From Mitsuaria sp. GD03876 (GTDB lineage: Bacteria; Pseudomonadota; Gammaproteobacteria; Burkholderiales; Burkholderiaceae_C), in NCBI RefSeq assembly GCF_029840635.1, contig NZ_JAOCCU010000009.1, positions 1-64,000 on the forward strand: a stretch of 64,000 nucleotides of DNA, in the 5' to 3' direction. Each line of letters opens with the position of its first letter. Position 1 is the first letter of the stretch. A model generated the notes under the pieces. That model saw only the letters and a list, made by a program, of their open reading frames with translations. It was not told where the DNA came from and did no database searches. The translations under genes were made by a program, and so were the position numbers. Positions 18,799-28,725 of the stretch are shown in pieces.

Positions 18799-19515
18799 TC
18801 AGACGCCTCCCGCGGACACGATCGGTCCGGTGGGCTTGCCGGTCGGAGACCCTCCGGCGGGCTCGAGGCTGACGGCGAACGCGCTGGTGTCCAGCAGCAG
18901 ATCCGCGCGATTCACCGTGGTCGGCGCTTCTCCAGCGCGGATCAATCCGAGCGAACGAGGCGCGCCGACTTTCGGGACGGCCCACAGCTCCAGCGCGTGG
19001 GCGCCATCGACGGTGACGGGCGCCAACGGCTTCAGCACCAGCGCGCGCCCATCCGCCGACACGCTCGCCACGAAGCCCGTCGGCATGAGTTGAAGACCCT
19101 CCGGCGTGCTGCGAAGCACGACCACCACGGGCGGGGCCTCGGGCAACGGGCGGCTCAGCATCGCGGCGAGCACCAGCGACGCGGCGATCGCGCCCGCGCT
19201 GATGCCCCGCCACAACAGCAACTGGGCGCCGCGGCGCTTCATGCGCTCAGCGCCGCCGTCGGTCGCCGCCGGCGCTTCGTTGGCGCTGCCGAACAGCCGC
19301 GCCTGGATGCCGGCCCACACGCGCTCGGGTGGCTCCACCGCCTCCACTTGGCCGGCGAGCAACTGCAGCCGCGCGTGCCACCGGGCCGCCGCCAGCGCCA
19401 GCGCGGGATGGGCGGGCATCAGTCGCTCGAAGCGGCGCCGCGCGCCGCCCCGGAGCGTGCCCAGCGCGTAGTCCGCGGCCAGGCGTTCGGCGCGTTCGCG
19501 GTGTCCGTAGTCCAT
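18799..19515 (-). CDS. Anti-sigma factor, RskA (anti-sigma-K) type
   Basis: This 238-residue protein would hold the upstream ECF sigma factor at the inner membrane. Residues 1-90 form a helical sigma-binding domain (ERAERLAADYALGTLRGGARRRFE, the anti-sigma domain without the zinc HxxxCxxC motif). One membrane segment follows at about 118-138 (ISAGAIAASLVLAAMLS), then a periplasmic RskA domain with DGAHALELWAVPK and LGLIRAG. It overlaps the sigma gene by one base (TGATG), so the pair is translationally coupled. RskA proteins are released by regulated proteolysis; the signal here is unknown. Confidence 0.9.
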   Translation of the reverse strand: MDYGHRERAERLAADYALGTLRGGARRRFERLMPAHPALALAAARWHARLQLLAGQVEAVEPPERVWAGIQARLFGSANEAPAATDGGAERMKRRGAQLLLWRGISAGAIAASLVLAAMLSRPLPEAPPVVVVLRSTPEGLQLMPTGFVASVSADGRALVLKPLAPVTVDGAHALELWAVPKVGAPRSLGLIRAGEAPTTVNRADLLLDTSAFAVSLEPAGGSPTGKPTGPIVSAGGV

Positions 19516-20216
19516 CAGGACGCCTTTCCGAACGCGCCCAGGCGCTCCGTCGCGCGGTCCAGGCAACTGCGCAGGCTCTGCAGCCCGCGGCGGACCCAGC
19601 TCTTCACCGTGCCCAGGGGCTGGCTCATGTGCTCGGCCACCTCGGCGTGCGACAGCCCCTGGTAATAGGCCAGCGCCAGGCTGCTGCGCTGCTCGCCGCT
19701 CAACCGGTCCATGCAATGCGCCAGCGCGTGGGCCCGGCTCGCGTCGTCGAGCAATTGAAGGGGGCCGGGCGTATCGCTCGGAAGGCCCGCGAGCAGGTCC
19801 GGTTCATGCGACGCCGGATCGCCGGCGTACCCTTCCAGCCCTCCAAAGCGGCTGATCGTGACGGGCTGGGCGGCCTTGCGCCGCATGCTGTCGATGGCGC
19901 GATGGCGAGCGATCGCGGTGAGCCAGGCCATCGCCTGGCCCTGGTCGCGATCGAAGGCCGCGGCCTGGCGCCAGACCGACAGGTAGATCTCCTGCAGGAC
20001 ATCCTCCGCCAAGGCCCGGTCGCGGTTGATGCGGAGCACGAAGCCGAACAGCGTCGCGCTGGTGGCCCGATAGAGCTGCGCGAAGGCGTCCCGGTCGGAC
20101 CGCGCCACGCGGTGCATCAGCTCCGCCAGCCAGTCGTCCCGTTGGGCATGCACGGCCTGCGCGGCCGCCCCCGTGTGTCCGGAACCCGCGTCTGAGGCGT
20201 CGGAGGAAGGTGTCAT
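19515..20216 (-). CDS. ECF RNA polymerase sigma factor, SigK-like
   Basis: This protein of up to 233 residues has sigma region 2 (DAFAQLYRATSATLFGFVLRI to WLTAIARHRAIDSMRR) and region 4 (LSGEQRSSLALAYYQGLSHAEVAEHM, PLGTVKSWVRRGL). Pairing with an RskA protein places it near SigK. The ATG at 20216 lies only about 10 bases from a promoter-like CGTA element, so the mRNA may be leaderless. Alternatively translation may begin at GTG 20153, which would give the more usual length. The element upstream of this gene also occurs before the DUF3455 and DUF4331 genes, implying autoregulation and a defined local regulon. Confidence 0.92.
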   Translation of the reverse strand: MTPSSDASDAGSGHTGAAAQAVHAQRDDWLAELMHRVARSDRDAFAQLYRATSATLFGFVLRINRDRALAEDVLQEIYLSVWRQAAAFDRDQGQAMAWLTAIARHRAIDSMRRKAAQPVTISRFGGLEGYAGDPASHEPDLLAGLPSDTPGPLQLLDDASRAHALAHCMDRLSGEQRSSLALAYYQGLSHAEVAEHMSQPLGTVKSWVRRGLQSLRSCLDRATERLGAFGKAS

Positions 20217-20225
20217 GCCGCGTTG

Positions 20226-20250
20226 TACGCAGCGCGCGCCGGATTGGATG
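20226..20250 (-). promoter_or_regulatory. ECF-type promoter element before the sigma gene (copy 1)
   Basis: The minus strand reads CATCCAAT, 13 bases, then CGTA. Spacing and sequence match the elements at 20946-20970 and 27522-27546. The CATCC core resembles the -35 I recall for mycobacterial SigK. The CGTA is about 10 bases before the annotated ATG. Confidence 0.7.
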
Positions 20251-20302
20251 ACCGCGGTGGACCTGGATGCCCGATCCCCGCGCCGGCACGGGCCGCGACC
20301 GC

Positions 20303-20893
20303 TCAACGCATGGCCACGGGCGTCCAGAAGATGTAGTCCGCCTGGTAGTCCACGACCTGCTTCTGGCCGAGGCTCGTGGCGTCGCAGGCGGTGCGCGGCG
20401 CCACGCCGCCCTGGGTCGCCACGCGCTGGACATGGCTGACGCCCTGCATCACCCCGGTGCCCGTGGCCGGATTCGCCTTCACCAGCTGCAGCGGGATGCT
20501 GTCCGCGCCGGCCGGCGCGACGGCGAGCTGGGTGGCGGTGATCTTGGAGCCATCCCGCGATTCCCAGGTCGCGGGCGGGCCGTAATACTTGCCGACCGTT
20601 TGTCCCTGGCGGTCCTTCAGCGTGGCGTCGGGGCCGACGAAGACCCATTCGAATTGCCCTGCCGCGTCCTTCTTCGCCCGGCATTCATAGGTGATCCGGC
20701 CGACGCCCACGGTCTCCATGGCGATCTGGTGGCCTTGCGGCACCTGCACCGCGGCGGGCAGGCCGGCCTGCGAGAAGGCCGGCGCCCGGGCGCCGGAGGA
20801 GCCGGACATGGCGCAGGCGCCGAGCATCACGACCGGCGCCAGCGGCGCCAACAGCGTCAGGACGGACTTCGCGCGGGGGGACATCGTGTTCAT
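20303..20893 (-). CDS. DUF3455 domain lipoprotein
   Basis: This 196-residue exported protein has a signal sequence ending in a lipobox (VVMLGAC at about residue 27), so it is probably lipidated. The mature part is DUF3455: VPQGHQIAMETVGVGRITYEC, FEWVFVGPDATL, GKYYGPPATWESRDGS, and the end VVDYQADYIFW. The function of the domain is unknown. It follows the TonB-receptor gene by 51 bases and has its own copy of the CATCCAA-N14-CGTA element inside the end of that gene. Membership of the sigma regulon is inferred from that element. Confidence 0.88.
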   Translation of the reverse strand: MNTMSPRAKSVLTLLAPLAPVVMLGACAMSGSSGARAPAFSQAGLPAAVQVPQGHQIAMETVGVGRITYECRAKKDAAGQFEWVFVGPDATLKDRQGQTVGKYYGPPATWESRDGSKITATQLAVAPAGADSIPLQLVKANPATGTGVMQGVSHVQRVATQGGVAPRTACDATSLGQKQVVDYQADYIFWTPVAMR

Positions 20894-20944
20894 CGCAGCT
20901 CCTCGTGGGGTGGGACAAGGCCGCCCGGCCCTGCCTGAGACGCT

Positions 20945-23161
20945 CTACGCAGGCCGACCCGCCTTGGATGCATTGCTTTCCGATCGCCACGACGCGGATT
21001 TCCCGGCTCGGAAGCGCCGGCGGACCGTGACGCGCCAGGTCCGCGGTTCCGCCGGATGCAGATGCCGATCCGCGACCGGAGCCGTTTCACCGGGAAGGCG
21101 GGACTCGTAGAAGTACTCGATGTCGTTGACACGCCGGTCGAACAGGTTGAACACGTCCAGCGTCCATTCGGTCTTCGGGCTCAGCTGCCTGCTCACGCGC
21201 AGGTTGGCCGTCAACGAGGACCGCGAGCGCGCGCTGTTGTCCTCGATCAGCGGCGCCGAGCCGAGGTAGCGCCACTGCAGGCTCGCGGACCAGGGACCGA
21301 CGTCCTTCATCGTCACGCCGACGGAGGCGACCCGGTCGACGGCGTTGGGGATGCGGCGCCCGGCCGGGTCGCGATCCGCGAAGCGCGCGCGGGTCCAGGC
21401 CAGGTCCGCGTCGATCAGCAGCCACGGGAGCGGGACGAACCGGTTGTTCCACTCCACCCCGCGCCGCGTGCTGGGGCGGTTGGCCTCGGTCGATCCGGCA
21501 TCGCCGACGTACAGGAGCTCCGAGTCGAAGTCCAGTCGCCACACCGCCAGCGACGTCTGCAGGCCCGGCAGCCATTCGCTGCGCAGCCCGACCTCGCGGC
21601 CGCGGGCACGGACCAGCCCGGGGACGGCGTCCACGGCGTCGCCCGAGCGCGGGTCGACACGGGTGGTGACGCCGCGCGCGTCGTTGCTGTGCAAGCCGCG
21701 GCCGGCGTTGAGGAACAGCTCGGTCCTCGCCCACGGGCCGAGCACCAGCGACCCCGTCGGCGACACCGCCGAGTGACGGGCCGCGCCCGAGTTCAGCGGT
21801 TGCGACAGGCTGTCCACGTGGAAGCGCGCCTGGTCCGCGCGCAGGCCGATCACCGCGCGGGCCCAGGGCGTCAGCTCGATGCCGGTCTGCGCGAACACGC
21901 TGGACAGCGTCTCCCGCACGCGATCGTCCCGCGTCGTGCCTACGACGGCCCGTGCCGCGGTGTCGAACAGCCCCACGCGCGCGCGATCCTGGCGCACTTG
22001 AACGCCGGCCTCGCTGCGGGCCGGCCAGGCGCCGATCGAATGCTCGACCGCATGGCTGGCGCTGAAGCCGCGGACGTGGCGATCGTCCTGCTGGGCGAAC
22101 TGGTCGCCGGTGTCCGGGCGCTCCAGCGCATAGGTGAAGTTGGAGTACAGCGACAGGCGATACGCCACCGCATAGGCCGCCGCGCGGGTCGTGCGCGCGC
22201 CGTCCTGCCGCGACCAGTCGACCGAGACACCGGTGCGCCGGGTCCGGCCGCCGTCGGTCGTATCGATCGCGTCGAAGCGTCCGAAGGGCCGGCCTTGAAA
22301 GGTCCCGGCCTCGATGAGCCGTTGCGGCACCTGGTCGGTGGCCGTCCAGTCCGCGCGGTAGTCCATCAGGCCCACGCGCCACCGGTCGTCGCCGTGGGCG
22401 CCTGACAGGCTCAGCAGCAGGTTGCGGCGATGGAGCCTTTCCGGCACGCGCCAGGGGCCGTCGTTGCCCATCGCCTCGACGGCACCCAACGCCTGCACGC
22501 CGTCGGCGACGCGGGCGGATCCGGCCGCGAGCGCGCGCCGGTAGCGGCCCTCCCCGGCGGTGAGGCTCACGAAGGGCGCGTCGAGTTGGCGCAGGTAGTC
22601 GATGTCGGCGGAGCCCGCCGCGGAGAAGTCGCCATTGCGCGCGAAGTACGGCCCCTTGCGGTAGTCGATGCGCTCGACCAACTCCGGGATCAGGAAGTTC
22701 AGGTCGGCATACCCCTGGCCGTGGGCGTGGCTCGGCATGTTCACCGGCACGCCCATCACGCTCGTGGCGAAGTCCGTCCCGTGATCCAGGTTGAAGCCGC
22801 GCAGGAAGTACTGGTTGGCCTTCCCGTCGCCGCTGTGCTGCGTGACGATCAGGCCGGGCACGAACTCCAGGACTTCGCCCGGCCTCAGCACCGGGCGATG
22901 CTTGAGCAGCGGTGCCCGGATCGTTCCTTGCGACGCGGCGTCGCTGCTGCCGACCGCGTTGTCGTAGTGCCGGCCGTCGACCTGGACCCGCATCAGGGTC
23001 ACCGGCGGCGACGGCTCGGATGCCGCCCCCGCCGGCGCCGCGTCGGACGACTCGGCGGGCCGGACGCCGGCCGGCGCCTCGGGACCGGGCGAGGCGCTCG
23101 CCGCCGCGCCCAGGAGGATCAACGCCGGGAGGGCGGCCATGCGAAGCGTTCTGGTCGTCAT
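20945..23161 (-). CDS. TonB-dependent outer-membrane receptor
   Basis: This 738-residue protein has a signal peptide (LPALILLGAAASAS), a periplasmic plug domain (about 60-190, with PGEVLEFVPGLIVTQHSG, ANQYFLRGFNLDHGTDF and RIDYRKGPYFARNGDF) and a 22-strand-type barrel ending at RRRFRAGK. An uncommon tail of about 17 residues follows. It imports a scarce substrate with TonB energy. Nothing in its sequence identifies the substrate, and no Fur box precedes it. It overlaps the HupE/UreJ-like gene by 4 bases (ATGA), so the two are translationally coupled. Confidence 0.92.
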   Translation of the reverse strand: MTTRTLRMAALPALILLGAAASASPGPEAPAGVRPAESSDAAPAGAASEPSPPVTLMRVQVDGRHYDNAVGSSDAASQGTIRAPLLKHRPVLRPGEVLEFVPGLIVTQHSGDGKANQYFLRGFNLDHGTDFATSVMGVPVNMPSHAHGQGYADLNFLIPELVERIDYRKGPYFARNGDFSAAGSADIDYLRQLDAPFVSLTAGEGRYRRALAAGSARVADGVQALGAVEAMGNDGPWRVPERLHRRNLLLSLSGAHGDDRWRVGLMDYRADWTATDQVPQRLIEAGTFQGRPFGRFDAIDTTDGGRTRRTGVSVDWSRQDGARTTRAAAYAVAYRLSLYSNFTYALERPDTGDQFAQQDDRHVRGFSASHAVEHSIGAWPARSEAGVQVRQDRARVGLFDTAARAVVGTTRDDRVRETLSSVFAQTGIELTPWARAVIGLRADQARFHVDSLSQPLNSGAARHSAVSPTGSLVLGPWARTELFLNAGRGLHSNDARGVTTRVDPRSGDAVDAVPGLVRARGREVGLRSEWLPGLQTSLAVWRLDFDSELLYVGDAGSTEANRPSTRRGVEWNNRFVPLPWLLIDADLAWTRARFADRDPAGRRIPNAVDRVASVGVTMKDVGPWSASLQWRYLGSAPLIEDNSARSRSSLTANLRVSRQLSPKTEWTLDVFNLFDRRVNDIEYFYESRLPGETAPVADRHLHPAEPRTWRVTVRRRFRAGKSASWRSESNASKAGRPA
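20946..20970 (-). promoter_or_regulatory. ECF-type promoter element before the DUF3455 gene (copy 2)
   Basis: The minus strand reads CATCCAAG, 13 bases, then CGTA. The element overlaps the last codons of the TonB-receptor gene and ends 52 bases before the DUF3455 ATG. Spacing is identical to the two other copies. Confidence 0.7.
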
Positions 23162-24363
23162 CCGCCGAGCCCCAGGAGCCGCAGGTCGAAGAGGCGTTCG
23201 ACGAGCCACACGATCGCGATGGCCGCGACGGCGACCGAGCACGCGTCCAGCACCCAGCGCGGATACCCCCGCCAGCGACGCGCGGTCCATGCCAAGGGCA
23301 CGAGCGCGGCGACGATCGTCAACTGCCCGGCCTCCACGCCGAGGTTGAAGAGCACCAGCGGCAGCGCGAGATCGGCGTGCGCCAGTCCGAGGTCCTTCAA
23401 CGCGCTCGCGAAGCCGAAGCCATGCACCAGCCCGAAGGCGAAGGTGAGCCGCCATCGCGTCTCCACCAGCACGGGCCGGAGGTTGTTGAGCGCGGCCAGC
23501 AGCACGCTCAGCGCGATGAGGCTCTCCACCCATCGGGACGGCGGATTCAGCACGTCGAAGACGGCCAGGCCCAGCGTGATCGAGTGCGCGACGGTGAACG
23601 CGGTCACCACGCCGAGCACGCGCCAGAACGCGGGCCGCCAAGCCGCGGCGGGCCACCAACGGTCTCCCGACCGCGTCAGGACGGCCGGCAACAGCAGCAC
23701 GACGAGGAAGAGCACATGGTCGACGCCGATCCAGATGTGGTGCACGCCATCCAGGAAGAGGGCCAGCGATCCGGCCGGATCGGCCGATCCGCCATCCTGC
23801 GAGGGGCAGCTCGCGCCGGACGCGGGGCCGAGTCCTAGGGGCAGGCTCAGCGCCGCGCTGCCCGGCGCGATGACGGTGGTCCGCGTCGACCCCGCCATCG
23901 TCCGCGCGAGGATGCCCCGATGCGTCGGATCGGTCGCGGCGAAGAGGCCGTACGACAGGGAGGCGGTCGCCGGCGAAGCCGTGCACGACCACGTCCGCGT
24001 CAGCACCGCATACCGGCCATCGCTGTGCTGGTCCAGTTGCAGCGGCGCGAACGCGCCGGGCATGCAGGCGGCGCCGGCGGCATCGCCCACCTCCAGCCGC
24101 AGGTCGCGGCCGACGAGCGCCTCGATGTCGGCGGTGCGGCCTCGCACCTCGCCCCAGCGCAGCAGCCCGTCGTCGTCCGCGTCCAGCACGAGGTCGCGGT
24201 CCAGGTCCCGAAGGGCGATGTCGGCCCGCAACGTCACCTGCCAGCCGTCGACCGAGAGCCGCAGGTAGGCGTCGCTCGCCTTGTGCGCCCAGGCCGCGGG
24301 AGCGAGGCCCGAGAGCGCGAGGGCCATCGCCGCGGCGACCCGCCAGGCACCAGGCCCGCTCAT
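23158..24363 (-). CDS. HupE/UreJ family membrane protein
   Basis: This 401-residue protein has a signal peptide ending at WAHKASDAYLRL. A soluble exported N-terminal half (about 25-190) follows, with an acidic EF-hand-like run (LDADDDGLLRWGEVRG, about 55-75) that could bind a divalent cation. The C-terminal half is a six- to seven-helix HupE_UreJ_2 domain with VDHVLFLVVLLLP, HSITLGLA, FGLVHGFGFASAL and LFNLGVEAGQ. Relatives are proposed metal (Ni/Co) permeases, but transport has rarely been shown. The His-rich helix motifs suggest metal contact. It is coupled to both neighbours by 4-base overlaps. Confidence 0.9.
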   Translation of the reverse strand: MSGPGAWRVAAAMALALSGLAPAAWAHKASDAYLRLSVDGWQVTLRADIALRDLDRDLVLDADDDGLLRWGEVRGRTADIEALVGRDLRLEVGDAAGAACMPGAFAPLQLDQHSDGRYAVLTRTWSCTASPATASLSYGLFAATDPTHRGILARTMAGSTRTTVIAPGSAALSLPLGLGPASGASCPSQDGGSADPAGSLALFLDGVHHIWIGVDHVLFLVVLLLPAVLTRSGDRWWPAAAWRPAFWRVLGVVTAFTVAHSITLGLAVFDVLNPPSRWVESLIALSVLLAALNNLRPVLVETRWRLTFAFGLVHGFGFASALKDLGLAHADLALPLVLFNLGVEAGQLTIVAALVPLAWTARRWRGYPRWVLDACSVAVAAIAIVWLVERLFDLRLLGLGG

Positions 24364-25586
24364 CCCGGCTCCTCGATCCGGCGGTCCCGCAGGCCGTGCT
24401 CGCGGGCGAAGGCGCGCACCGGCGCGGCCGACTCCGGGTGGCCGGCGGCCTGCGCGGCGCGCACCAGCAACACGGCATCCGCGGGCTCGCGCTGGAGGGC
24501 CCAGTTCAGCTCGGCCTGCCGCAGCGCGAGCGGGGCATCACCGAGGACATCCAGCGCGAAGCGCGCGCGTTCCCGCGCATGACTGGTGTCGCCGCGCAGC
24601 GCGGCCGCGTCGAAGCGCGCCTGCATCTCGGTCTTCGCCGGGACCGCGTCCGGGGCGCCCATCTGCTTCCAGGCGATGGCGAGCCGAAGCAACAAGGCAT
24701 CGGGCAACGCGGAGAGCAACGGGCCGGTCTCCGTGGCCTGGCCCGCCCGCACCAGCGACGCGGCCTGTGCCGGACGTCCCGCGTCCAGCAGCCAATCGGC
24801 ATAGGCCGCGCGCGCGTACAGGCCGTCGTCGAGCGACAAGGCCTTCGCATACAGCGCGCCCGCCTCCGGACGGCCCTGGCGTTCGGCCAGTTCCGCCTGC
24901 AGCAGCGCCAGCCAGGCGTGCGGCGCCTGCGGCGCGCGATCCAGCGCCGCGAGCCGGTCGCGCGCCGCGCGGTCCCGCCCCTGCAGGCTGTCGAGTTCCG
25001 CCAGGCAGGCCTGGCCGTGCGGCAGCGACAGCGGCGGCGCGGCGAGCCGCTCGCACCCGGAGCGGGCCTCGTCCCAGCGTCCGCGCACCTGCAGCACGCC
25101 GGCGCGGGTGAACTCGGCCTGCGCGCGCAACGCGGGCGCCAGGTCGCGCTCGCGCAGCAACCGGTCGAGCTCCGTCAACGCCGGATCGAAATCGTGCTGC
25201 GCCTGCAGCACCGTGGCCTTGAGCAGCCGGACCGCCGGGGGCGCCGCGGGATCCGTCCACCACGGGCGCAGCCAGGCTTGCGCGGTGCCCAGGTCCCGCG
25301 GATCGCCGAAGCGGCGGCCGCGGTCGATGGCCTCGCGGGCCGCGCGCAAGGCCAGGCCCAGGTCCCGGGGCTGCTGGGCCAGCACCCGTTGCTCCGCGCG
25401 CAGCCGCGCCCGTTCCGTCGCCGATCCGGCGCGCGACGGCAGCCGTTCCACGACCTCGTCGTCGTGTCGAGGGCGGGACGGCTCGGCCACCGCGGCGGCC
25501 ATCGCGATCGCGAGGAGGATCGCGAGGGCCCGCGGCAGGGACGACGGGGCCGGGCCGGCGAGCGCCTCGACCCGTTCGGCGCTCAC
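24360..25586 (-). CDS. Exported TPR-like repeat protein
   Basis: This 408-residue protein starts with GTG, overlapping the preceding stop (GTGA). An N-terminal hydrophobic stretch (LPRALAILLAIAMAAAVA, about 15-32) is a signal peptide or anchor. The rest is alpha-helical with Ala/Leu-rich 30-40-residue repeats (for example FDPALTELDRLLRERDLAPALRA and WLALLQAELAERQGRPEAGAL), consistent with tetratricopeptide repeats in the periplasm. It probably scaffolds partners of the HupE/TonB system. It has no catalytic motif. Confidence 0.8.
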   Translation of the reverse strand: MSAERVEALAGPAPSSLPRALAILLAIAMAAAVAEPSRPRHDDEVVERLPSRAGSATERARLRAEQRVLAQQPRDLGLALRAAREAIDRGRRFGDPRDLGTAQAWLRPWWTDPAAPPAVRLLKATVLQAQHDFDPALTELDRLLRERDLAPALRAQAEFTRAGVLQVRGRWDEARSGCERLAAPPLSLPHGQACLAELDSLQGRDRAARDRLAALDRAPQAPHAWLALLQAELAERQGRPEAGALYAKALSLDDGLYARAAYADWLLDAGRPAQAASLVRAGQATETGPLLSALPDALLLRLAIAWKQMGAPDAVPAKTEMQARFDAAALRGDTSHARERARFALDVLGDAPLALRQAELNWALQREPADAVLLVRAAQAAGHPESAAPVRAFAREHGLRDRRIEEPG

Positions 25587-25909
25587 GTGACGGGCGCCGG
25601 TTCGTCGGTCTCGCTGGTGGGGGGCACCGTCACGTTGTCGGCCGTCAGCGGCTCCGCGGTCTCGCTGCCGGACTGGGCCGTCGTCAGCGTGAACTGCGTG
25701 TAGGCGGCGGGCGAGGCCAGCGCGCTGTCCGGGATGGCGCCGCCGGCGGGCTGGCCCGGCATGTCGGTCGCGTCGTCGCCGCCGCCGCCGAAGCAGCCGG
25801 CCACGAGCGTCGCGGCGGCGATCGCCGTCAGGCGCAGCGCGGGGCGCCGCCACCGGTTGGCCGGATCCGGCGCGGTCCGGCCGGCCGTGACAGGGAAGGG
25901 CGTGGTCAT
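25583..25909 (-). CDS. Small lipoprotein of unknown function
   Basis: This protein is 108 residues from the ATG at 25909, chosen because AGGAAGGAG lies 6 bases upstream; an ATG at 25927 would include that ribosome site in the coding region. A signal sequence ends in a lipobox (TLVAGC, about residue 39), followed by GGGGDD. The mature part is short, Thr/Pro/Glu-rich and probably disordered (TVPPTSETDEPAPVT). It lies between the DUF4331 and TPR genes within the same operon. No family recognised. Confidence 0.75.
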   Translation of the reverse strand: MTTPFPVTAGRTAPDPANRWRRPALRLTAIAAATLVAGCFGGGGDDATDMPGQPAGGAIPDSALASPAAYTQFTLTTAQSGSETAEPLTADNVTVPPTSETDEPAPVT

Positions 25910-25923
25910 GACGGGCTCCTTCC

Positions 25924-27453
25924 TCACTGGGTACCGCCGGCGGGCGTGTACAGGTAGGGGAATCCAGGCAGCAGCGGCACGACGGCCTGATCGACCGCGT
26001 CATGCAGCTTCAGCGAGGTGGCGCCCAGCGGCACCGCCGAGGGCTTGCACGCCGCGCCGAAACCCAGCGCGTCGGTGTCGCCGTTGGCCATGCACAAGCC
26101 GCCCATCACCGCCACGAGGGAGATGTCGACGACGTCGTCCTTCGGCCGGCGTCCGTTGGGGAATCCCGCGTTGTCGCTGCCATGCGCGAGCAGGTTGCCC
26201 ACGACGCCCAGCCGGTTCTGCTGCGCGAAGGGGACGGCCGCGATGGACGTGTTCAGGCGCAGTTCCTCGGACGCGACGACGTTGGCGGGCTGGTTGACGT
26301 TCTTGATGCCGGTGAGGAAGGTCGTCACCAGGTCGTTGCGCGGCAGGTTGGTCGGCGCGGCGTTGCCCAGCCCGAGCACCGTCGAGAGCAGCGCCGGCAG
26401 CGTGGGATGGGTCACGTAGGTGGCGAACTGCGTGTCGTCCTTGGGCTTGGACGCGTTGAAGCGGTCCTTGTCGGGCAGGCCGATCACGACCTCGTTGACC
26501 AGCGGCATGCCGAGCCGGGAGACCTGCACCCAGGCGCCGCCGGCCTTGTCGCTGTTCTGGTGCCCGGCCTTCGGGGCCGGATCGAGGATGCGCGCCTGGC
26601 GCATGCTGGCCGTGGTCCAGCCGCCGATGACCGGCTCATTGCCGGCGACCAGGCAGCTCTTGTGCACTTCCAGCGCGAGGGTCGTGACGTTCTTGCCGTC
26701 CAGCGTGTTGGGCGCGGCGTTGATTTGGGCCGGATCGGTGATCACGCCCACCGGCGCGTTCACCAGGTCGAAGATCGTTCCCAGGTTGACGGCGAAGGGA
26801 TCCTTGCGTTGCCCCGCGAAGACCTTGGCCGGCTGGGCGCACCCCGGGATCGTCACCGCATAGACGTGCTTGGCGGCGTAGGCCGCGTAGTCGGCGATGG
26901 TCTTCTTGCCGATGTTGTCGACCGGCTTGTCGAAGGTGGCGGAGCCGCCGGTGGCGTTCGTGATCGACGCCCGCGTGCCGGAGCGGCGGTCGCCCCGGAC
27001 GATGTCGACGGTGTAGGTCTCGTTGAGGTTGAGGGTGGCGGCCTTGGGGTCGGCCACGGCGCCGGACTGGATGAGCGGGATGGGCACGCTCTTGTCGCCG
27101 ATGGTCAGCGCGGTGGCCTTGAGCGAGTGCTTGAACCGGAACTGGAAGGTGATGTCTTCCTTGGCGTCGCCGTTGTTGTCGACATGGATCTCGTAGAGCG
27201 CGTTCGGATCCAGCGAGAAGTAGTTGGGGCCGCCATACGGGTCCTGCAGCGGTAGGTAGTTCGCGATGAGCGTGACGTAGTCGGTGCGGCCGGGCTCGTA
27301 GCTCATGAACAGGTAGAAATCCGTCGCGTCCGCCTTGGGGACGGTGGTGATGAATGGCGCTTCCCGATGGCTGGAGGCGAAGGCCAATCCGGCGCACAGC
27401 ACGCTGGCGGCGATGCACCCGGCGCGAAGACGCGTCGATGGGGACGGGGTCAT
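25924..27453 (-). CDS. DUF4331 family exported protein
   Basis: This 509-residue protein has a signal peptide (CIAASVLCAGLAFAS) followed directly by SSHREAPFI and DATDFYLFMSYEPGR, the typical DUF4331 N-terminus. DUF4331 continues with DNNGDAKEDITFQFRF, NRLGVVGNLLAHG and GRRPKDDVVDISL. The acidic DNNGDAKED run resembles a Ca-binding loop. The ATG at 27453 has AGGAG 9 bases upstream. It is the first gene of the long minus-strand unit and has its own sigma-type promoter element. DUF4331 genes often neighbour HupE/UreJ-like and TPR genes, from memory, but no role is established. Confidence 0.9.
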   Translation of the reverse strand: MTPSPSTRLRAGCIAASVLCAGLAFASSHREAPFITTVPKADATDFYLFMSYEPGRTDYVTLIANYLPLQDPYGGPNYFSLDPNALYEIHVDNNGDAKEDITFQFRFKHSLKATALTIGDKSVPIPLIQSGAVADPKAATLNLNETYTVDIVRGDRRSGTRASITNATGGSATFDKPVDNIGKKTIADYAAYAAKHVYAVTIPGCAQPAKVFAGQRKDPFAVNLGTIFDLVNAPVGVITDPAQINAAPNTLDGKNVTTLALEVHKSCLVAGNEPVIGGWTTASMRQARILDPAPKAGHQNSDKAGGAWVQVSRLGMPLVNEVVIGLPDKDRFNASKPKDDTQFATYVTHPTLPALLSTVLGLGNAAPTNLPRNDLVTTFLTGIKNVNQPANVVASEELRLNTSIAAVPFAQQNRLGVVGNLLAHGSDNAGFPNGRRPKDDVVDISLVAVMGGLCMANGDTDALGFGAACKPSAVPLGATSLKLHDAVDQAVVPLLPGFPYLYTPAGGTQ

Positions 27454-27765
27454 GGAGGGCTCCTCGGCGTTGAGGGAACGGTGTGGTGGAGGCGGACGGT
27501 CATGACCCGTCCAGGTCGTCTTACGCGCCGGAGACCGACTTGGATGCATGCGATCCGCGCATGTCTTGAAGGTCCAGGCCGGCGCCGTTCACGCTGGGCA
27601 AGGACGCGCCCCGTCGGGCCCGGGGCCTGTCGGCGGAATCCGGGACGCACGCGAAGCAACGCCATGCATCCGATCGGATGGGCGATGCGTACGCGCGCGC
27701 GGTCGTCGGCGAGGTCTTCATCGCGGCTGGCGTCGATCACCAGGGTGGCGAGCGTCCCCCGTGCT
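27454..27765. other. Intergenic region with the operon promoter
   Basis: These 312 bases separate the DUF4331 gene from the glycosyltransferase gene on the same strand. They contain the promoter element at 27522-27546 and an otherwise unremarkable GC-rich stretch. No terminator or small gene is evident. Confidence 0.7.
27522..27546 (-). promoter_or_regulatory. ECF-type promoter element before the DUF4331 operon (copy 3)
   Basis: The minus strand reads CATCCAAG, 13 bases, then CGTA, followed by AGAC. It lies 69 bases before the DUF4331 ATG. The first nine bases (GCATCCAAG) are identical to copy 2. Confidence 0.7.
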
Positions 27766-28725
27766 TCAAGCCCGCGACGACGCCGCGAGTTCCGGCAGTT
27801 CGTCGGCGACGACGCTGCCGGGCAATGGCCTGGCGTGCGCGCACTGGCGGCCGAGCCGGTCTCGCTCGGCGCTGCGGAGCTTGACCAGTGGGGTGTCCTG
27901 CCGTCGGCCCCAGCCCATCAAGGCGAGCATCAGGCGCCACCGTCGCCAGCCCGTGCGGGACTGGTAGAAGTAGGCGCGGTCTTGCGCCGGCAGCAGGTGG
28001 ATGTTGAACGGGCCGTCGCGTCGCATCACGACGCGTGCCGCGACGTGCATGACCAGGTACCGCGGCGAGTTGATGCCCGATAGCAGCTCGTCCCGCGCCG
28101 GACCGAGCCCTGCCAGGTAGGTGGCCTCGCCCAGCGCGAGCGCGTGTCGCAGCTCGCTTTCCCAGGCCAGGACGAATCGATCGCCCGGCGGCGCCGCGAA
28201 GCACCAGTTCTCGAGGAAGGGCCATGTCCCCGGCGCGGCAGTCGCGGCGGCGTTGCCCGCGTGGAGGTGAAAGCCGCTCAGTCCGCGCTTGCGCGTCGCC
28301 AGCGCCAGCAGCCAGTCGGGCGAGCGCGTCAGGAACAGGCTCGCGTCCATCCACAGCCCGCCATGGCGCCCGACCAGGGCGACCCGAAGCCAATCCGCTT
28401 GGCGATAGGCCGCCCAGGTGTCGAATGACTCGGGCATCGGCTGCCCATCGAGCGCTTCGGCGATCACGCCAGGGTGCAACACGCGGATGTCGTAGTCCGG
28501 CGCGTGACGCCGCCAGTTGGCGACGCAGGCCGCGACCACCGGGGGCAGCTCGCGGGTGTGCCAATAGGACCAGATGACGCGAGGGACTCGCCGTCTTTCC
28601 GGCATGACATGGGCCTGGCTGGTCCAGCTCGGCAGCGAGCGGGAGGATCGAGTGCAAGCGCGATGAAGCAGGCGGGTGACCGGCCGCATCACTGCGAGGA
28701 TCGTCGAGCAGAGGGTGAGCTTCAT
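27766..28725 (-). CDS. Capsular polysaccharide synthesis-type glycosyltransferase (GT32-like)
   Basis: This 319-residue protein carries the Caps_synth/GT32 pattern: PRVIWSYWHTRELPP near residue 48, then YDIRVLHP, and the nucleotide-sugar site ADWLRVALVGRHGGLWMDASLFL with the metal-binding Asp. Such enzymes transfer sugars to polysaccharide or lipid acceptors at the cytosolic face. The ATG at 28725 begins the family alignment; upstream sequence in frame is shadow. It is a lone gene with no neighbouring polysaccharide cluster, next to the gene-poor region with the glmS fragment, which hints at acquisition. Sugar and acceptor unknown. Confidence 0.82.
   Translation of the reverse strand: MKLTLCSTILAVMRPVTRLLHRACTRSSRSLPSWTSQAHVMPERRRVPRVIWSYWHTRELPPVVAACVANWRRHAPDYDIRVLHPGVIAEALDGQPMPESFDTWAAYRQADWLRVALVGRHGGLWMDASLFLTRSPDWLLALATRKRGLSGFHLHAGNAAATAAPGTWPFLENWCFAAPPGDRFVLAWESELRHALALGEATYLAGLGPARDELLSGINSPRYLVMHVAARVVMRRDGPFNIHLLPAQDRAYFYQSRTGWRRWRLMLALMGWGRRQDTPLVKLRSAERDRLGRQCAHARPLPGSVVADELPELAASSRA

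Follow-up and report, generated by a model that had tools for sequence, protein, structure and literature searches.

The window analysed here is a stretch of 64,000 nucleotides (nt) from the genome of Mitsuaria sp. GD03876 (6,360,071 bases in 94 contigs). A SigK-like sigma factor of the extracytoplasmic function (ECF) type is encoded in it together with an RskA-type anti-sigma factor, a DUF3455 protein and an operon starting with a DUF4331 gene. Bipartite sites with the consensus YGCATCC[A/G]-N14-GCGTA, in which CATCC and CGTA are separated by 16 nt, are located in this cluster. Judged from sequence comparison, these sites are very probably the promoters of the SigK-like factor and form a compact SigK-type regulon. 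The predicted regulon comprises no fewer than four sites in the window, and a further one lies outside. The promoter reading is supported because the spacing of 16 nt is fixed, the sites are positioned before orthologous genes, they co-occur with the sigma factor, and they are enriched in sigma-bearing genomes.

Probable promoter sites in the window

The initial annotation reported three copies of CATCCAA(G/T)-N13-CGTA on the minus strand, and all three, of 25 bases each, were found where they had been placed (20226-20250, 20946-20970 and 27522-27546). The pattern is absent from all 100 dinucleotide-shuffled versions of the window. The genome scan proposed in the annotation was run with CATCCAA-N13..15-CGTA, and exactly three matches were detected in 6.36 megabases (Mb), all of them in the window, as against one match of the reversed pattern. 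With up to two mismatches at fixed spacing, 535 matches were detected in the genome. Since the reversed control gave 522, this number is background and the loose pattern is uninformative. The orientation had also been given correctly. Site 1 ends 9 nt upstream of the sigma start codon, site 2 ends 52 nt upstream of that of DUF3455, and site 3 ends 68 nt upstream of that of DUF4331. The conserved core of the motif is CATCC[A/G]-N15-CGTA, and the trailing "AA" of the annotated pattern was over-fitted.

Using the corrected consensus, three exact matches to YGCATCCR-N14-GCGTA were found in 6.36 Mb, and all of them (sites 2, 3 and 4) belong to the cluster in the window. Site 1 (20226..20250, minus strand; CATCCAA-N14-CGTA), the candidate promoter of the sigma gene, deviates from the consensus in the bases immediately 5' of CATCC. 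Its score in a matrix built mainly from relatives is 25.8 bits, and 20.0 bits when its own locus is left out of the training. Site 2 (20946..20972, minus strand; TGCATCCA-N14-GCGTA), the candidate promoter of DUF3455, scores 26.9 bits and shares bases with the stop codon of the TonB-receptor gene located upstream of DUF3455. Site 3 (27522..27548, minus strand) is the candidate promoter of the DUF4331 operon. Site 4 (27665..27691, plus strand) is divergent and matches the consensus exactly. The three sites of the annotation are thus all real, but this fourth one had been overlooked.

Conservation of the sites and co-occurrence with the sigma factor

In a search of 150 genomes of the family, the sigma factor was found in 53 (E <= 1e-35) and DUF4331 in 48 (E <= 1e-40). 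Of the 30 DUF4331 loci retrieved, 24 carry CATCC-N16-CGTA in the 400 nt upstream, and each of the other spacings (10-23) occurs zero to two times. On the opposite strand, spacing 16 was found in six of the 30 upstream stretches, and at least two of these six matches, those in G073 and G022, are attributable to a sigma gene in divergent orientation. The scoring matrix consists of 35 sites from the stretches upstream of DUF4331 and sigma genes of relatives, which were chosen by CATCC-N16-CGTA; the window supplied two of the 35. With the locus left out, 29 of 30 DUF4331 loci reach at least 10 bits, and the interior of DUF4331 genes reaches at most 2.7 bits. Because the training sites were picked at these loci by CATCC-N16-CGTA, the matrix scores of DUF4331 and sigma loci are partly circular even in the leave-one-out form. 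That circularity does not affect the spacing counts, the reversed controls or the DUF3455 loci. For DUF3455, which lies outside the training, a site is present within 250 nt in seven of eight loci, only at spacing 16. In the set of named genomes, a site was found in 12 of 17 DUF4331 loci. The five misses are L208, in which DUF4331 follows a DUF3455 gene that has the site, and four distant loci. The locus sets overlap, some named loci being the same genomes as in earlier sets (e.g. L195 and G073). Within the genus, the sigma ortholog is present in 10 of 16 genomes, including that of the window. Among the nine loci fetched besides the window, all seven having DUF4331 carry its site, the CATCC of which lies 91-97 nt upstream of the start codon.

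All 54 DUF4331 copies of the 150-genome sample were scored for co-occurrence, a close sigma ortholog being defined by at least 190 bits. CATCC-N16-CGTA precedes 29 of the 33 copies with a close ortholog and four of the 21 others (Fisher p = 4.8e-7, the related genomes being non-independent). In three of the four misses among the ortholog-bearing genomes, CATCC is replaced at unchanged spacing by AATCC or CGTCC, which differ from it in one or two bases. Among the copies without a close ortholog, AATCC occupies the position of CATCC, again with unchanged spacing, in eight of 21 (L095, L119, L153, L154, L156, L159, L160 and L162), as if the -35 element and the sigma factor had changed together.

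Site density was determined in 58 selected genomes, namely 29 of the 31 that have a close ortholog (excluded were the own genome and G143, which is 76% complete), 19 of the 20 listed genomes with no match (97 in all; the 65%-complete G023 was excluded) and 10 of the 22 with a weaker match. For YGCATCCR-N15-CGTA, the sigma-bearing genomes gave 212 matches in 150 Mb (1.41 per Mb), the weaker-match genomes 33 in 39.9 Mb (0.83 per Mb) and the no-match genomes 38 in 73.6 Mb (0.52 per Mb). The reversed control gives 0.12, 0.33 and 0.14 per Mb, respectively. The Mann-Whitney p value for the sigma-bearing against the no-match genomes is 1.5e-6.

The motif extends to a wider family. Across 41 more distant sigma loci (Sphingomonas, Phenylobacterium, Stenotrophomonas, Caballeronia, Pandoraea and others), 31 matches to CATCC-N16-CGTA were counted, as against one to five at other spacings. 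The stricter G[CA]ATCCR-N15-CGTA occurs 24 times in the same loci, as compared with 0 in the reversed sequence, and 16 of these 24 sites are located either in the 350 nt upstream of sigma or 1.1-1.5 kilobases (kb) after the sigma start, where the next unit begins. The ten downstream proteins scanned at the distant loci are fasciclin (two), FAD amine oxidase (two), DUF1295, a fatty-acid desaturase, Lipoprotein_15, a sigma factor, one protein without a family, and DUF4331, the last in one gammaproteobacterium. For Burkholderiales, 40 regions were fetched around genome-wide matches, and 33 downstream frames were picked in 30 of them. They encode TonB receptors (three), CFA synthases (three), and fasciclin, glutathione peroxidase, DUF3455 and BD-FAE hydrolase (two each). 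Single frames encode Cu/Zn superoxide dismutase, AhpC/TSA peroxiredoxin, a molybdopterin oxidoreductase (MsrP in NCBIfam), a NicO nickel transporter, DUF3034, DUF4198 and others. Eight of the 33 have no Pfam family, and one of these is a BufA2 bufferin in NCBIfam, against which six proteins were run. The gene content in relatives, with SodC, glutathione peroxidase, peroxiredoxin, MsrP, fasciclin and CFA synthase following the motif, suggests that the theme of the regulon is envelope oxidative or metal stress.

The sigma factor and alternative readings

The sigma factor (19515..20216, minus strand; 233 amino acids) has the domains sigma2 and sigma4 (Sigma70_r2, E 2.1e-14; Sigma70_r4_2, E 2.6e-13), and among named relatives its gene is closest to those of Roseateles noduli and R. 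aquatilis. In the PDB, its closest relative is SigK of Mycobacterium tuberculosis (4nqw, E 2e-31). Cys168 and Cys218 are invariant in all 20 aligned orthologs (out of 30 loci) and align with two cysteines of SigK 4nqw. The pairing with RskA suggested in the initial annotation agrees with the gene arrangement. An RskA-type gene (18799..19515, minus strand; RskA_C, E 4.8e-20) is adjacent and co-directional, its start overlapping the sigma stop codon, and an rskA match is present in 30 of 30 sigma loci. The system is thus an additional member of the known SigK/RskA kind. Besides the best PDB match, the RskA partner and the two cysteines, it resembles SigK-RskA of M. tuberculosis in that fasciclin, DUF1295, FAD amine oxidase and CFA-synthase genes of relatives follow the same motif. 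The fasciclin genes are of the MPT70/MPT83 type, and the mycobacterial sigK locus holds similar enzymes. The mycobacterial SigK promoter may be CCATCC/CGTA-like, and the motif here is YGCATCCR-N14-GCGTA. The present system differs in its targets in the window (DUF4331, DUF3455, TonB, HupE and TPR), in its Gram-negative host and in its score under the NCBIfam SigK cut-off.

The literature basis consists of excerpts of PMC7509140, PMC7406223, PMC4821874, PMC6527743 and PMC8103513; DUF4331 is not named in the literature searched. According to the excerpts of PMC7509140 and PMC8103513, the cysteine pair of SigK is C133/C183 and has a redox role, and SigK-RskA of M. tuberculosis is ECF18 in that of PMC7509140. 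ECF19 with the anti-sigma factor AS19-1, as presented in the excerpts of PMC7406223 and PMC7509140, is also a proteobacterial SigK-like factor. Helix 1 of the window RskA, ERLAADYALGTL, resembles the AS19-1 motif HTLAGAYALDAL in the excerpt of PMC7406223, the comparison being made by eye. The sulfite-oxidation regulons of SmRpoE4/SnSigE (ECF26) are alike in being small ECF regulons of few periplasmic redox genes, and their -10 element CGTC resembles CGTA, whereas their -35 element is GGAAT instead of GCATCC and their targets are others (PMC6527743, in part).

A second module is located on contig C15 (31000-42000, L340) in the order DUF3455-2, SigK2, RskA2, TPR and SodC (Cu/Zn superoxide dismutase). 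Among the loci fetched, the next-best site of the own genome, C15:34512 (21.8 bits), lies directly before this second DUF3455 gene. The window and C15 copies are 38% identical for DUF3455 and 42% for the SigK-like factor. Because this module, too, stands behind such a site, both paralogs could recognise the sites. SigK2 might thus read some or all of these SigK-type promoters, alone or jointly with the window factor, and distant SigK-like factors were also found near this motif. We regard this as unlikely. In genomes with the distant factor only, CATCC precedes DUF4331 in none of eight copies (AATCC in three), as compared with 29 of 33 in ortholog-bearing genomes, and the window sigma gene is linked to the sites. 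The claim of the initial annotation that the sigma factor drives all three units is supported comparatively by spacing, position, co-occurrence and enrichment, but the regulon appears larger than proposed and SigK2 may share its sites.

The two other explanations deny that the sites are promoters of this kind. An operator of a conventional regulator or a repeat element would fit with the absence of any gene family found in the direction of site 4, with the sites of some relatives that face antisense regions, and with the opposite-strand matches upstream of DUF4331. It is nevertheless very improbable, because two half-elements with one fixed spacing and fixed polarity are typical of ECF promoters, the sites precede orthologous start codons, their distribution tracks the sigma factor, and no sigma-70-type promoter was found in 20150-28100. 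A chance likeness of three GC-rich sites is hardly credible. The two-mismatch pattern is indeed at genome background, and the initial pattern was found in 46 of 60 relatives with 123 matches against 79 in the reversed control, but the shuffles, the whole-genome counts and the conservation across genera contradict chance.

Several observations weigh against the proposed SigK-type regulon of the window sigma factor, in addition to the site of the same kind before the SigK2 module in the own genome. The four DUF4331 copies that have the motif without a close ortholog include one in G171, which is given as 100% complete; the other three genomes are 93, 86 and 80% complete. The sigma-less genomes exceed their reversed control (0.52 against 0.14 per Mb). 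Other SigK-like factors may be responsible for this surplus. Inside sigma genes, the matrix reaches at least 10 bits in three of 30 loci (top 16.2), which indicates that it is incompletely specific, and scores of about 10-16 bits therefore need context. The window sigma factor scores 160.3 bits with the NCBIfam SigK model NF007228, below the cut-off of 226, and for this reason it is called SigK-like. Of 30 sigma loci, only 10 carry a site at a distance of up to 400 nt, and thus autoregulation is not a family rule. The autoregulation expected in the annotation is likely in the window by way of site 1, but it is not general.

Proposed transcription, the divergent site and the gene cluster

In the proposed mechanism, the adjacent membrane anti-sigma factor RskA would keep the ECF factor inactive and then release it. 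RNA polymerase carrying the window sigma factor, rather than its paralog, would recognise YGCATCC[A/G] as the -35 and GCGTA as the -10 element, 16 nt lying between CATCC and CGTA, and transcription would begin 7-9 nt after CGTA. The transcribed units would be sigma-rskA from site 1, DUF3455 from site 2 and the DUF4331-lipoprotein-TPR-HupE-TonB operon from site 3, and site 4 would fire outward.

The start codon is located 9 or 10 nt after CGTA in five of the 10 sigma loci of the initial set with a direct site (window, G116, G022, R. violae and G020). The same distance is found in four more same-genus sigma loci, three of them with CTGATCC at -35. The four proteins start alike from that ATG (MTPPSEDSG, MTSPSDESG, MTTPSDDSG and MTPSSDDPV; window, MTPSSDASD). 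At ECF promoters, transcription commonly begins some 7-9 nt downstream of the -10 element. Thus, these sigma transcripts would be nearly without a leader, and the window sigma mRNA is probably leaderless. For seven other loci (L182, L186, L205, L210, L218, L221 and L222), no direct sigma site is listed. Their copy of the motif is found some 3 to 3.6 kb upstream of sigma, flanked by a cytochrome c gene and a convergent one, and is directed towards sigma in antisense orientation through purU.

A second, divergent site is located 121-123 nt away (start to start) from the DUF4331 site in G010, G005 and G008, as in the window, and two of these have AATCC. Counting that of the window (27665-27691, plus strand), divergent copies are present in four same-genus genomes; the other three are at loci L350, L352 and L353. 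Neither conserved sequence nor a known family was found downstream of the divergent site across these four genomes, and the four plus-strand frames around and beyond site 4 match no Pfam family. The opposite-strand gene beyond site 4 is of the Caps_synth type, and a different gene is located there in R. noduli. R. violae (G073) and G022 have the sigma gene itself in divergent orientation to DUF4331. Site 4 may therefore be a remnant of such a divergent sigma-DUF4331 layout, or it may be a source of non-coding RNA. The -35 half of site 4 is a perfect 14-base palindrome, CATCCGATCGGATG. A similar pair of sites, 124 nt apart, is located upstream of the sigma gene in L355, a contig of R. aquatilis.

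A wider proposal, which we put forward tentatively, is that the YGCATCC[A/G]-N15-CGTA code may be common to SigK-like factors of Beta-, Alpha- and Gammaproteobacteria. It would serve a core envelope redox/metal regulon with DUF4331 and DUF3455 as signature members, here with a leaderless sigma mRNA and, opposite DUF4331, a conserved divergent promoter making a non-coding transcript. The motif first noticed by eye is now a comparatively tested promoter consensus, which can be used to search proteobacterial SigK/RskA systems. The uncharacterised DUF4331 and DUF3455 would be placed in a definite regulon beside oxidative-stress and metal-handling genes, and this membership would offer a direct route to their function.

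The genes of the cluster are arranged on the minus strand in the order DUF4331, lipoprotein-like, TPR-like, HupE/UreJ_2, TonB receptor, DUF3455, sigma and RskA-type. The operon starts with DUF4331 (25924..27453; E 9.2e-150). The second gene (25583..25909) encodes a small lipoprotein-like protein for which no family was found, and its synteny is kept in several relatives. The third gene (24360..25583) encodes a TPR-like protein with no Pfam match and a weak NCBIfam repeat match below the cut-off. It is followed by the genes for a HupE/UreJ_2 membrane protein (23158..24363; E 1.1e-47) and, as the last of the operon, a TonB-dependent receptor (20945..23161; family match). The DUF3455 protein (20303..20893; family match) is predicted with good confidence to form a small beta-barrel akin to AbyU-type cyclases and dirigent proteins.

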